DNA of 36,472 nucleotides from a virus. Under the pieces are notes generated by a model. It was not told where the DNA came from. It worked only from the letters and a program-made list of their open reading frames with translations, and did no database searches. The stretch is taken from positions 1-36,472 of the IMG/VR virus record IMGVR_UViG_3300033571_008179. One strand, 5' to 3'. Shown here piece after piece: positions 1 to 36,472 of the stretch; position 1 is the stretch's first letter; every line of letters begins with the position of its first letter. The position numbers and the translations under genes were made by a program.

Positions 1-622
1 GCTACTTTTGGAATTGTTGCTTATGGCAAATTACAAAGACACACGAGCCGTCAGGCAAAGCAAAGTCATAATTGTAAAGCGTGGTCAGATATTGACCAGC
101 ATCTTAGAGCTTTCCAACAAGCTTCAAGTCTCGCGCAAGATAATCACAAGTAGGCTGGAAATTTTGGAGCAACTTGGAACAATTACGCTAAAAAGGGACA
201 GCCTTGGAACGATCATAACTATTGAGAATTTTTCAAAATATCAGGACATGGAAAGCGAGTCAGGGACAACGAAGGCACAACCAAGGAACAACGAAGGGAA
301 CAACGAAGGAACAACGAAGGGTACACGTATTGAAGAAGGGAAAGAAGTTAAAGAAATTAAAGAAGGGGAAGAAGGCTTTTCCCCTGTTGATAACTTTTTA
401 GATTTCTACTGCAACGAAATGCAAAAGGTTTATGGAAAGGCCCCCAGGATAACAAGCCATCTAAGGCGTGTTGCAGGGGAGATACTTGATGAGATCGGCT
501 TAGATCGTTCCATCGCATTGGCGGGCCAATTCTGCGCTTCTAATAGGGATTATTACGTCAAGAGAGCACATAGCCTGGACGTGATGTTAAAGGATTTAGC
601 CATCATTGACATGTTTGTTTAA
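1..622 (+). CDS. Replication initiator-like winged-helix protein, 3' part
   Basis: Continuation of the gene that starts at 36297; base 1 is the third base of a codon. The first ~110 residues of the full protein look like a winged helix-turn-helix domain (LSNKLQVSRKIITSRLEILE, then a beta wing). A low-complexity linker rich in T, N, G, E and K follows, and then a C-terminal helical domain (NFLDFYCNEMQKVYGKAP onward). This matches phage lambda-O and DnaD-like initiators: an origin-binding N-terminus, a flexible linker and a loader-interacting C-terminus. The linker is encoded by five 11-bp repeats, so the origin probably lies inside the gene. No helicase or polymerase is visible elsewhere, so host enzymes would be needed. 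An ATG at 8 is an internal methionine, not the start. Confidence 0.75.
   Translation, partial: LLLELLLMANYKDTRAVRQSKVIIVKRGQILTSILELSNKLQVSRKIITSRLEILEQLGTITLKRDSLGTIITIENFSKYQDMESESGTTKAQPRNNEGNNEGTTKGTRIEEGKEVKEIKEGEEGFSPVDNFLDFYCNEMQKVYGKAPRITSHLRRVAGEILDEIGLDRSIALAGQFCASNRDYYVKRAHSLDVMLKDLAIIDMFV
265..320 (+). repeat. Five 11-bp iterons inside the replication gene (candidate origin)
   Basis: Units at 265-275, 276-286, 287-297, 299-309 and 310-320 follow the consensus AACAACGAAGG. Three are identical and two differ at one or two bases. One extra G (298) separates units 3 and 4. The 11-bp period is not a multiple of three, so each copy is read in a different frame and encodes different residues. 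Conservation is therefore at DNA level, as expected for initiator-binding iterons. In lambda the origin iterons likewise lie inside gene O. Confidence 0.75.
329..378 (+). other. Purine/A-rich tract next to the iterons (possible unwinding region)
   Basis: Immediately downstream of the iterons the + strand is almost pure A and G for about 50 bases (from TATTGAAGAAGGG to GGAAGAAGG). Lambdoid origins have an asymmetric A-rich region beside their iterons where strands open first. The resemblance is positional and compositional only; the tract also encodes an E/K-rich linker. Confidence 0.4.
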
Positions 623-3951: not shown

Positions 3952-5148
3952 ATGCAGCATCAATTAGCTTATGAGCGTGTCAATATCGCATCACTTAAGT
4001 TTGATCCACGCAATGCTAGAAAGCATGATGACCGTAACATTAAAGCAATCATGGACTCTCTTAGCAAATTTGGTCAACAAAAGGCCATTGTAGTTGGTGA
4101 AGATAACATCGTCATCGCTGGCAATGGTACTCTAGAAGCAGCGAAGCGATTGGGATGGGATACCATTGATGTCAGACGCTCTGGCCTCAAGTCAGACGAA
4201 GCTACTGCCTATGCTATTGCAGATAATCGCTCCGCAGAGCTTGCCGAATGGGATGACTCTGTGCTCGGCGACATATTGTCAGAGCTTAAAGAATCTGGTT
4301 GGGAGCTTGATGATCTTGGCTTTAATGATGATGATTTAGAGAAATATATAAAGCAAGAAGGCACAGAAGGCTTGACAGATGAGGATGACGTGCCAGAAGT
4401 TGCTCAAAATGAATTTGGCGTTAAGCGTGGAGACATTTGGCAGCTTGGTAATCATCGGGTGATGTGTGGTGATAGCACGGATAAGGCTACAGTTGAGAAG
4501 CTGATGAACGGTAAAAATGCTGATATGGTTTTTACTGATCCTCCTTATGGGATGAATCTAGATTGTGATTTTTCAGATATGCCTTCCGCAAAAGGAACAA
4601 CAAGTAAAAAATATAAAAATGTTATTGGAGACCATGAAGATTTTTCTCCAAGTTTAATTACAACAATATTTGAAAATTTTTCTTATGCGCGTGAAATATT
4701 CTTATGGGGTGCCGATTACTATGCAGACATTTTGCCAGACAGAAATAACGGATCTTGGGTAGTATGGGACAAGAGATCTGACGGCGGAATGGACAAGTTA
4801 TTTGGAAGTAGCTTTGAGCTGTGTTGGAGCCGAACTAAACACAAGAGAGATCTGGCAAGGATTGTTTGGGCTGGTTATTTTGGCATGGGTGCGGATGATA
4901 CTAAAACCAGGGTGCATCCAACACAAAAGCCAGCAAAGCTCGCACAGTGGTTCTTTGAAAGGTGGGGAAAAGATAACGATGTTATTGTGGATCTATTTCT
5001 CGGCTCCGGATCCACTCTCATTGCCTGCGAAAAAACAGGCCGCAAATGCTACGGCATGGAATTAGATGAGCATTATTGCAGCGTCATCATCAAACGCTGG
5101 CAAGACTTCACAGGCAAGAAAGCAGAGCGAATAGTTGAGGGAGCATGA
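3952..5148 (+). CDS. ParB-like domain / DNA methyltransferase fusion
   Basis: A 398-residue fusion. Residues ~8-130 are a ParB/sulfiredoxin-like domain (FDPRNARKHDDRNI, then IVIAGNGTLEAAKRLGW, then AYAIADNRSAELAEWD). Residues ~155-398 are an amino-methyltransferase: DPPYG at 196-200 (motif IV, catalytic) comes before FLGSGS at 349-354 (motif I, S-adenosylmethionine binding), with HPTQKP between. This circular order is that of beta-class N6-adenine or N4-cytosine methyltransferases. Such fusions are frequent in phages and probably protect viral DNA from host restriction or mark packaging sites. No partner restriction gene is seen. It overlaps the large terminase gene by ATGA. Confidence 0.9.
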   Translation: MQHQLAYERVNIASLKFDPRNARKHDDRNIKAIMDSLSKFGQQKAIVVGEDNIVIAGNGTLEAAKRLGWDTIDVRRSGLKSDEATAYAIADNRSAELAEWDDSVLGDILSELKESGWELDDLGFNDDDLEKYIKQEGTEGLTDEDDVPEVAQNEFGVKRGDIWQLGNHRVMCGDSTDKATVEKLMNGKNADMVFTDPPYGMNLDCDFSDMPSAKGTTSKKYKNVIGDHEDFSPSLITTIFENFSYAREIFLWGADYYADILPDRNNGSWVVWDKRSDGGMDKLFGSSFELCWSRTKHKRDLARIVWAGYFGMGADDTKTRVHPTQKPAKLAQWFFERWGKDNDVIVDLFLGSGSTLIACEKTGRKCYGMELDEHYCSVIIKRWQDFTGKKAERIVEGA

Positions 5149-33486: not shown

Positions 33487-33906
33487 TCAAAATGGTACGT
33501 TGTCTTCTGCAAAGCCATCAACCGAAACTGGGGCATTTGCTGCGGGTATGTCAAACTCTGGCACTTCCAAGTTTTGTAATTTGGTTGGATGGCAAATCCA
33601 GACAAAATCACTAACCATGAGGCTGACATTTGCGGCTGGTACCCCATCTTGCTTTCTTGCATAGGCATCTACATCAAGCCTTCCCGTGACATAAACGATA
33701 TCCCCTTTGTTGGTTTTGTTAGCCATGATTTCGCCAGTCTTTCCAAAAGCCCTGCATTTAACCCAGATAGTTTTTCTGCGGTCTCCATAGCCTGTTGATA
33801 CGGCTAGGCTTAACTCATACCATTGTTTTGATCCATCTTTGCTGGTTCTAAGCTCTGCAGCCCTGCCAGCGTGTCCCATAAATGTACATTGATTTAGATG
33901 CGGCAT
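33487..33906 (-). CDS. ssb: Single-stranded DNA-binding protein
   Basis: A 139-residue OB-fold SSB: an N-terminal strand NQCTFMGHAGRAAELR, WYELSLAVSTG, a TIWVKCRAFGKTGEIMANKT core, and GDIVYVTGRLDVDAY. The tail ends DGFAEDNVPF, an acidic tip with terminal PF as in bacterial SSBs, which recruits repair and replication partners. It belongs with the ERF annealing protein and Gp157-like gene upstream in one recombination block. Confidence 0.9.
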   Translation of the reverse strand: MPHLNQCTFMGHAGRAAELRTSKDGSKQWYELSLAVSTGYGDRRKTIWVKCRAFGKTGEIMANKTNKGDIVYVTGRLDVDAYARKQDGVPAANVSLMVSDFVWICHPTKLQNLEVPEFDIPAANAPVSVDGFAEDNVPF

Positions 33907-33908
33907 AA

Positions 33909-34094
33909 TTATCTCTCCTCAAATTTATCGAATATTGTCATCAAACCTAACACAATTAATCCAAACGCAAGTATTGCAAAGTCACGGATAGCATCTGCTT
34001 TGCTGCTACGGCCAACATTATTAAAATCGCTATGACATAAGCCACCGATGCTAGGGTCCACTCTGCCATTGTGTCTTTTAGATTGTCCATCCAT
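33909..34094 (-). CDS. 61-aa overlapping ORF with C-terminal membrane span (frame B)
   Basis: The N-terminal half (MDGQSKRHNGRVDPSIGGLC) looks like a shadow of frame A. The C-terminal half (AIRDFAILAFGLIVLGLMTI then FDKFEER) looks like a real membrane protein and ends just before SSB with GAGGAGAG, which serves as the SSB ribosome site. Frame B is in the -1 register to frame A, so the tail could be reached by a slip, by an unusual start, or by the ATG at 34094. I see no classic slippery heptamer. Confidence 0.4.
   Translation of the reverse strand: MDGQSKRHNGRVDPSIGGLCHSDFNNVGRSSKADAIRDFAILAFGLIVLGLMTIFDKFEER
33956..34090 (-). CDS. 44-aa membrane microprotein (frame A)
   Basis: ATG 34090 opens MDNLKDTMAEWTLASVAYVI, then AILIMLAVAAKQML, and ends VTLQYLRLD. 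This is a clear membrane span with a charged N-terminus. It shares a ribosome site (GGGGAT) with a second ATG at 34094 in another frame. The hydrophobic design in this frame, against a strange polar sequence in the other, suggests this is the real product for this part of the region. Confidence 0.6.
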   Translation of the reverse strand: MDNLKDTMAEWTLASVAYVIAILIMLAVAAKQMLSVTLQYLRLD

Positions 34095-34095
34095 C

Positions 34096-34266
34096 TTATC
34101 CCCTAATCTTCAAAACAATATCGTGCGGTGACTCAATCACATCTAGCTTATTATCAATCAGAATCAAACAAGCCCCGCCCGTTGTGCTTTCAGTAATCGC
34201 AATGATCTTGTCAACGTTCAAGATGACCTTTGGACCCTCAACACTTTCAAGCTCCACAAATCTCAT
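34096..34266 (-). CDS. 56-aa FlbD-like small beta protein
   Basis: It starts in an ATGA overlap with the ERF gene, encoding MRFVELESVEGPKVILNVDK, IIAITESTTGGACLILIDN and a C-terminal IESPHDIVLKIRG. The strand pattern (V.LN.D.I.AI, then LI.NK.DV.ES) resembles the FlbD-like small-beta family seen in flagellar and phage genes. Function in phages unknown. Tight coupling on both sides supports expression. Confidence 0.75.
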   Translation of the reverse strand: MRFVELESVEGPKVILNVDKIIAITESTTGGACLILIDNKLDVIESPHDIVLKIRG

Positions 34267-34952
34267 TTGTCCTCCGGCTCTTTGTCTGGGGTGTCTGGAT
34301 TAATAACGGAATACTCAGCCTCTACTGTGCCAGTCAATGCGGGCTTGCCTTCCATGCGTTTGATAAGCTCATTCATCATGCCTGGGTTGCCTTTTTTCTC
34401 TAAGAAAGCCAGCAAGAATTTCAAATGGTTTTTGTTTGATTTATCGAACGTAGCAGGAGCGGCAGTGTTGGGTGGAGGCGTAGCTTTCGACGTATCCACA
34501 GAGCTTTTATCCACGTTATCTTTAGTATTGGCGTGAGAACTAAAGCCCATAGATTTTGGCGCACTCGCAGCATTTCCGTCATCGTCATCTCCAGAGCCTA
34601 ATCCGGCCATTGATTGAATTGAATACCTTTTAACATAAGTCAGACAGCTTCCAGATGCTTGCGGTGTTGATTGTACTGGCGTCAAGCCAAACAAGCCTTT
34701 TATCCATTGACCTGACTCATGCATGATTAAGGTAGTGCAGTTAATTACTGGCCCGTCATTACCTGGAACTTGTACCAAGCTCAACCCATTTTCTGCAAAC
34801 GGCTCTCTGATTTCATCAATTACTGATGCAAGATCGGCGTATTTGCTTTTGAAATGTGGGTTGATGTTGTCTTTTTTTGCGTGGCGCATCTTGGCTTGGG
34901 CTTTACTTAAAGCCTTCGCAAGCTCGCCAATTTGGTCACTCATTTGTAACAT
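34263..34952 (-). CDS. erf: ERF-family single-strand annealing protein
   Basis: I start at ATG 34952 (229 residues), which has GGAGGA upstream; an ATG at 34997 lacks this. The motifs NPHFKSKYADL (31-41) with EIREPFAENGLSL, then SCLTYVKRYSIQSMAGL (102-118) and GDDDDG (121-126), are those of P22 Erf-like recombinases, which anneal complementary strands and can circularise or recombine phage DNA. A low-complexity linker (STKATPPPN-like) precedes a C-terminal helical part. Neighbours SSB and Gp157 support this. Confidence 0.92.
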   Translation of the reverse strand: MLQMSDQIGELAKALSKAQAKMRHAKKDNINPHFKSKYADLASVIDEIREPFAENGLSLVQVPGNDGPVINCTTLIMHESGQWIKGLFGLTPVQSTPQASGSCLTYVKRYSIQSMAGLGSGDDDDGNAASAPKSMGFSSHANTKDNVDKSSVDTSKATPPPNTAAPATFDKSNKNHLKFLLAFLEKKGNPGMMNELIKRMEGKPALTGTVEAEYSVINPDTPDKEPEDK

Positions 34953-35454
34953 ATTGTTCCTCCGTTTTGTTAAGAATGCGTAATCGATGCTTATCAACTA
35001 GCCTAGCAAAGTTCAATTTTTTTCCACTTAAAAGCGCACTTTTTACGTCATCAACCTTTAATTCCCAGATAATCTTTGGCTCACGGTAGCTTTCAGGGAT
35101 GCTAAACTTTAGCTCTTCTGGGATCATCCAATCGGTGTGATACGTCCTACAGGCTGCGGCCTTGATCTCAGGCATATCTTGATCTAAGCCAAGGATATGT
35201 TTTGTGGCCTCAATAGAACGCATTGGCTGGCCTTTTAATAGCCGAACCCCCAATCCCTGTAATTTCTGAAGTCGGTGCTCCCAAAGCTCTGCGCTTTGAC
35301 GATATTCTTGCGCACGTGATTCATACCTTGCAGCAAGTAGCTTGCAACGATCAATAAGAGCAACAAGATTGTCAGCCTTGTCACAAGGGTCTTCAATGCC
35401 ATCAAAATACTCCTCCAAATCCAGTTCGGTTAAAAGGCTTTCGTTTATTTCCAT
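34936..35454 (-). CDS. Siphovirus Gp157-like protein
   Basis: A 172-residue protein with the family's form: an acidic N-terminus, a coiled coil (DNLVALIDRCKLLAARYESR, AELWEHRLQKLQGLG), then ATKHILGLDQ and a C-terminal beta/alpha part (ELKVDDVKSALLSGKKLNFA). The Gp157 family, first noted in Streptococcus thermophilus phages, usually sits next to ERF and SSB genes and probably helps recombination, though its mechanism is not settled. The C-terminus is coupled to ERF by a 17-base overlap, the N-terminus to the RHH gene by TAATG. Confidence 0.8.
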   Translation of the reverse strand: MEINESLLTELDLEEYFDGIEDPCDKADNLVALIDRCKLLAARYESRAQEYRQSAELWEHRLQKLQGLGVRLLKGQPMRSIEATKHILGLDQDMPEIKAAACRTYHTDWMIPEELKFSIPESYREPKIIWELKVDDVKSALLSGKKLNFARLVDKHRLRILNKTEEQYVTNE

Positions 35455-36296: not shown

Positions 36297-36472
36297 ATGG
36301 CTCGGTTTACTAACGGATGGGTAAAGATACACCGCAAATTGTTATCGCCAGAATGGAGTCAATGCTTGGACGTTGTTGCCAAGGGGCTACTTTTGGAATT
36401 GTTGCTTATGGCAAATTACAAAGACACACGAGCCGTCAGGCAAAGCAAAGTCATAATTGTAAAGCGTGGTCA
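36297..36472 (+). CDS. Replication initiator-like winged-helix protein, 5' part (continues at base 1)
   Basis: This is the true start of the gene whose remainder is at 1-622. The ATG at 36297 follows an AAGGAT ribosome site, and the frame runs without a stop into the 87-bp end repeat, in phase with the ORF at the window start. The whole protein would be about 236 residues. Residues 1-32, unique to this end, read MARFTNGWVKIHRKLLSPEW and onward, the usual opening of phage O/DnaD-type replication proteins, which recruit the host replication machinery to the origin. Assignment rests on fold-like pattern and on the iterons inside the gene, not on a clear catalytic motif. Confidence 0.8.
   Translation, partial: MARFTNGWVKIHRKLLSPEWSQCLDVVAKGLLLELLLMANYKDTRAVRQSKVIIVKRG
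36386..36472. repeat. 87-bp terminal overlap identical to bases 1-87
   Basis: Every base of 36386-36472 equals 1-87. Since it joins the two halves of one reading frame, it is best read as the overlap of a circular assembly rather than a biological end repeat. Confidence 0.95.

Follow-up and report, generated by a model that had tools for sequence, protein, structure and literature searches.

Initiator gene and terminal repeat

The window, by which we mean the whole 36,472-bp stretch analysed (IMG/VR virus record IMGVR_UViG_3300033571_008179), carries a direct terminal repeat in which bases 1–87 are identical to bases 36386–36472, indicating that the phage genome is circular or permuted, with a circularised length of 36,385 bp. 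Because bases 1–87 recur at the far end, the frame running on from base 2 represents the 3′ portion of an initiator gene (1–622, plus strand, residues 31–236). The circularised reading frame starts at ATG 36297, crosses the junction and stops at 620–622, giving a protein of 236 amino acids. Its 5′ part (36297–36472, plus strand), which continues at position 1, encodes the N-terminal half of the wHTH domain, and the N-terminus given by ATG 36297, MARFTNGWVKIHRK, aligns with the start of relatives. Neither the terminal repeat nor this true start was in an earlier note made on this DNA.

Only the N-terminal part of the initiator matched a known family, phrog_2514 ‘DnaD-like helicase loader’ (E 2e-17). 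An AlphaFold model of the relative L029, which has the same numbering and is confident in the DNA-binding region (about 94–97 pLDDT), places the recognition helix at residues 75–88 and the wing at residues 91–104. The corresponding codons in the window lie on the plus strand at 134–175 and 182–223, with Arg75 encoded at 134–136 and Lys76 at 137–139. The C-terminal domain (residues 155–236; 374–619, plus strand) is helical (AF2 pLDDT 91) and is common only to the window protein and its nearest orthologues, to which the window initiator is 41–46% identical. No PHROG, phage-protein or PDB-fold match was found for this domain, nor a recognisable helicase-loading relative; it is presumed to be the replisome-recruiting part of the protein. 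Directly 3′ of the initiator gene (643–1163) are two adjacent small Cys-rich proteins of similar sequence with a CPHCxKRYG-like motif, which are probably zinc-binding paralogues.

An 11-bp iteron array inside the coding sequence

The linker of this winged-helix initiator gene contains five 11-bp iterons on the plus strand: GACAACGAAGG (265–275), CACAACCAAGG (276–286) and three copies of AACAACGAAGG (287–297, 299–309 and 310–320). A spacer G at 298 separates the third from the fourth, so that the unit spacings are 11, 11, 12 and 11. Tandem Repeats Finder (TRF) reported period 11, 5.3 copies and a score of 88, in agreement with the earlier description of five head-to-tail units with one single-base spacer. 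Also borne out was the claim that the units are coded in shifting frames inside the initiator gene: the copies start in codon frames 2, 1, 0, 0 and 2, all three frames being used, and because they are read in different frames the peptide is not repeated (TTKA-QPR-NNEG-NNEG-TTKG for iterons 1–5). The observed 9-mer repetition of the linker was matched in 0 of 20,000 synonymous-codon shuffles and in 74 of 20,000 permutations of its own synonymous codons. As the iteron unit contains no T, no stop codon can occur in any frame through it, and a DNA array of any spacing can therefore run through the coding sequence.

A purine/A-rich, strand-asymmetric tract follows the array at 325–378 (plus strand), as had been noted, with a 9-bp AAAGAAGTT-type periodicity (TRF period 9). 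This tract is 80% purine, a content matched by only 0.12% of the genome’s 54-bp windows, and 65% AT; its instability is only moderate (13th percentile), and it is a candidate unwinding element. An A-rich strand-asymmetric tract follows the arrays across the initiator family, where the mean composition 10–49 bp after the array is 72–78% AT, 51–60% A and 4–9% C. Cumulative GC skew of the circularised genome gave no support: its raw minimum, at 147, is rotation-dependent and uninformative as an origin marker, and third-position GC skew showed no sign change anywhere in the genome. GC skew was rejected as an origin marker, since it follows gene direction.

Arrays are conserved across the initiator family

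The terminase led to viral relatives within the same phage lineage. Three of these keep the initiator (L029, L016 and L014), and each carries an array at the same place built from another unit, all of them 12 bp (AAACGGACTTAC, CAACAGACCGTA and GATACAGCACAC, respectively); that of L014 is perfect, with 7.7 identical copies. Protein relatives were then gathered from viral contigs and bacterial genomes, blind to repeats, and loci already in hand were added, resulting in a family set of 113 clusters (<80% identity), two of which (L023 and L024) first entered via a search with the window iteron. The window shares the traits of this wHTH initiator family, namely a homologous N-terminal winged helix with an array of 10–13-bp spacing directly after it.

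The earlier note had named homologues without repeats at this place, together with a skew minimum elsewhere, as evidence against its reading; when we looked, 100 of 110 testable relatives had an array directly after the winged helix (a significant chain at 11/12-bp spacing, judged by codon-order shuffles), and 91 of 110 were significant at p ≤ 0.05 in synonymous shuffles. Spacings were 11 bp in 320 cases and 12 bp in 140, and all three frames were used in 88 of the 100 arrays. The first spacing is usually 12 bp (65 of 100 arrays) and later ones 11 bp. Within the linker, autocorrelation peaks at lag 11 with a value of 0.52, whereas the sequence on either side of it in the same genes gives 0.27; the further peaks at 22/23 and 34 are harmonics, and the flanks show nothing of the kind. 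Overall, a score of at least 8 was reached by 88 of 113 initiator genes versus 0 of 263 neighbouring control ORFs. Arrays start about 320–390 bp into the gene, and the repeat sequences vary from phage to phage. Of the phages with names, PVL, A118 and the Bacillus phage 000TH010 have good scores and Orisa03 is borderline; phages A403, SL25 and Vibrio 1.167 have double units of 22–23 bp. In the literature covered, mainly outside subscription journals, no paper describing in-gene arrays of 11-bp units for these initiators came up.

In many relatives (for example, L023, L034, L051 and L146) the wing codons hold an extra iteron that matches the gene’s own array, with a score of 7.95 for the own motif versus 4.36 for the motifs of other genes. 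The DNA coding for the DNA-contacting wing is thus probably a binding site in its own right. No extra copy was present in the wing codons of the window (score 4.2).

Residue 76 co-varies with the iteron sequence

With overall similarity removed, column 76 had the strongest partial correlation with iteron similarity among 100 columns (r 0.33, 87 genes; columns average 0.01, s.d. 0.08). It again ranked first of 99 columns in 42 independent close pairs (p 0.001, uncorrected); these pairwise co-variation tests handle phylogeny only approximately. Iteron position 0 is G in 16 of 16 Lys76 genes, including the window, versus 5 of 29 Gln76 genes, which mostly have A. The window, with Lys76 and G at position 0, agrees with the family association. 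Wing columns 91–97 and 102 also co-vary with the iterons, but because the wing codons frequently include a further copy of the gene’s own iteron, columns 86–98 were set aside as confounded; residue 76 lies outside that stretch.

Only three of the 113 clusters combine Arg75 with Lys76, namely the window, L023 and L024. All of them carry GRACAACGAAG; L023 and L024 are overall 25–30% identical to the window protein. As both entered via the window-iteron search, their match is consistent with a residue-to-base code and is not independent proof of it. Gp49 of Listeria phage A118, outside the 113 set, combines DRK with GGACAACGAAA. Besides L023 and L024/L028, the search with the window iteron pattern returned few initiator genes, among them the weaker family matches L203 (KK) and L206 (KW), and the Arg-Lys class thus rests on very few cases. 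These statistics point to a contact at residue 76, and co-variation with the recognition helix suggests that the protein probably reads its array.

Predicting residue 76 from DNA patterns

We ran three DNA-pattern searches on 2.9 million viral contigs. GGCAAAC was picked as typical of Lys76 genes, its expectation not having been recorded before the search. The predictions that triples of AACCAACA would indicate Gln76 and pairs of GTGAACAAC Ser76 were recorded beforehand, and both patterns were slightly lengthened when run. Loci fell inside the initiator family in 34 of 35 cases for GGCAAAC, 92 of 102 for AACCAACA and 66 of 66 for GTGAACAAC.

Residues were counted in new clusters, not within 80% of training genes. 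Lys76 was found in 19 of 19 new clusters from the GGCAAAC search (background, 18 of 113), Gln76 in 51 of 59 from the AACCAACA search (background, 39 of 113) and Ser76 in 30 of 43 from the GTGAACAAC search (background, 18 of 113). Mean identity within the Gln class was 0.32, and between the Gln and Lys classes 0.35; as the Gln class is not more alike internally than it is to the Lys class, shared descent alone is insufficient to account for the association between residue and base. Together with frame use, codon shuffles and the family-wide 11-bp spacing, this co-variation with the recognition helix strongly supports the earlier claim that selection acts on the DNA rather than on the peptide.

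Comparison with known systems

The earlier label ‘lambda-O-like’ holds as an analogy. In lambda ori, iterons lie in the initiator gene, are bound by the N-terminal half of the protein and are followed by a 40–49-bp A-T-rich strand-asymmetric segment (PMC4488673), a trait that the window has at 325–378. The label does not extend to kinship: lambda O belongs to another protein family, and no Phage_rep_O Pfam match to the window protein was found up to E 0.1. The lambda iterons are four, spaced, 19 bp long and bound by dimers (PMC3985674), whereas those of the window are five contiguous 11-bp units. Lambda also has a separate loader, P, whereas no lambda-P partner was found in the window, where the small genes that follow rep gave no match to a loader family and some small ORFs are unassigned.

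A second parallel is the RepA_N protein of pSK41, whose own rep gene contains the four boxes that it binds and from which the central linker can be deleted; in a pPR9/pUSA03 chimera, the RepA_N domain had given way, along with the origin, to an N-terminal domain of phage type, and the replicon remained functional (PMC5703833). The two systems share a winged-helix N-terminal domain, mid-gene boxes, a linker and a separate replisome C-terminal domain. They differ in having four Rep boxes versus five contiguous 11-bp units, and the C-terminal domain of the window protein has no DnaD-like fold match. The window protein gave no RepA_N Pfam match, and a fold search with the L029 model returned generic winged helices, with pSK41-type Rep structures among the weak matches (4pql, 4pt7 and 5kbj). 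By analogy, the window system most likely works like lambda ori or pSK41 RepA_N, while the family searches placed it in neither group.

The DnaD-like loaders (phrog_2514 and phrog_186; A118 gp49 and Staphylococcus phage PVL orf46) have a homologous winged helix, and in A118 and PVL the gene has an 11/12-bp array where the window has its own. Some of these relatives have a DnaB_2/DnaD or Phg_2220_C C-terminal domain, whereas that of the window is of neither type; the DnaD/DnaB_2 domain occurs in only part of the initiator family and so is not required for membership. The Rep protein of lactococcal phage TP901-1 also has repeats inside the rep coding sequence. Unlike those of the window, they have period 15, a multiple of three; this protein was unmatched as a relative, and its 11-bp chain score is 3.

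A candidate origin probably read by the product of its own gene

We propose that the array is very probably the initiator-binding part of the phage replication origin, located within the gene for its cognate initiator. As judged from sequence comparison, the array is under DNA-level constraint, its spacing and place are conserved family-wide, and iterons and recognition helix co-vary. In our proposed mechanism, the N-terminal winged helix, with its recognition helix starting from Arg75-Lys76, would bind each 11-bp unit, with one protomer per unit and hence one per helical turn. As the head-to-tail units repeat roughly once per helical turn, the monomers would line up along one face of the DNA, and the filament-like nucleoprotein complex so formed would open the adjacent purine-rich tract. 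The C-terminal domain would then bring in the host replicative helicase, activating the origin, and the linker peptide would largely be a by-product of the DNA array. An in-gene origin fits both the anatomy of the locus and precedent.

The array could instead be an operator that limits the initiator’s own transcription or translation, with the true origin elsewhere. Initiators often autoregulate, and co-variation shows that the protein probably reads the array and not why; we nevertheless consider this reading unlikely, since the arrays lie well within the gene and not at the promoter, the A-rich asymmetric tract comes after them and their anatomy matches proven in-gene origins. An array could also serve as operator and origin both. 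Neutral replication slippage in an unconstrained hydrophilic linker is a still less probable source of the repeats. Perfect arrays such as that of L014 are a sign of recent expansion, and in the nearest orthologues, with period 12, peptide and DNA repetition are inseparable. However, slippage within coding DNA should favour steps that are multiples of three, whereas 11 bp is the prevailing spacing over 100 divergent clusters. Slippage would also predict neither the link to residue 76 nor the match of wing copies to each gene’s own array, and the prospective DNA-to-residue tests already contradict it. Least credible is selection on the linker peptide as an Asn/Thr/Gln/Lys-rich tether, with DNA repeats following from codon bias: linker composition is similar across the family, but the synonymous shuffles described above, in the window and in relatives alike, and the absence of a repeated peptide in copies read in different frames speak against it.

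Initiator genes that contain an origin are known from a small number of model systems. We think it probable that the majority of wHTH (DnaD-like) initiators of phages, in many bacterial phyla, have their origin in their own gene as one-turn (11-bp) iterons running through all three frames, and that residue and base are linked by a simple code located at the recognition helix’s first turn. The initiator and its origin would then diversify together as one self-contained, swappable cassette whose specificity is readable from sequence. In this large family of phage initiators, about nine members in ten have in-gene arrays, with a fixed 11-bp spacing overriding the reading frame and a testable recognition code. 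Origins and the specificity of initiators could thereby be predicted from sequence alone, and with them the compatibility of co-resident phages or phage-plasmids. The arrays also form a natural data set for studying how a protein co-evolves with its binding site when one stretch of DNA encodes both.

Replacement of the initiator gene and other gene content

The nearest genome relatives, L005 and L006, are about 90% identical to the window over much of the shared sequence and have no initiator gene. In place of the initiator and array (window 36110–642), both have an unrelated gene for an HNH endonuclease plus about 570 bp of non-coding DNA (L005:5386–6437 and L006:192–1243). No repeats were found in this non-coding DNA, and no Rfam match in the replacement region or in the window. 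Neither contig, each of which may be incomplete, has an initiator relative elsewhere, and none was found in several related contigs, most of them fragments. As initiator and array are jointly absent, the lineage can apparently replicate another way, which counts against the origin reading, with the proviso that these contigs may be incomplete.

No helicase gene was noticed among the window’s translations, inspected by eye, which would suit dependence on a host helicase. Putative genes for a single-stranded DNA-binding protein and a single-strand-annealing (ERF-like) protein, their translations likewise judged by eye, lie on the minus strand at 33487–35454. Just before the terminase, a DNA methyltransferase and an N-terminal ParB-like domain are joined in one ORF, at 3952–5148 (matches to phrog_620 and phrog_498).
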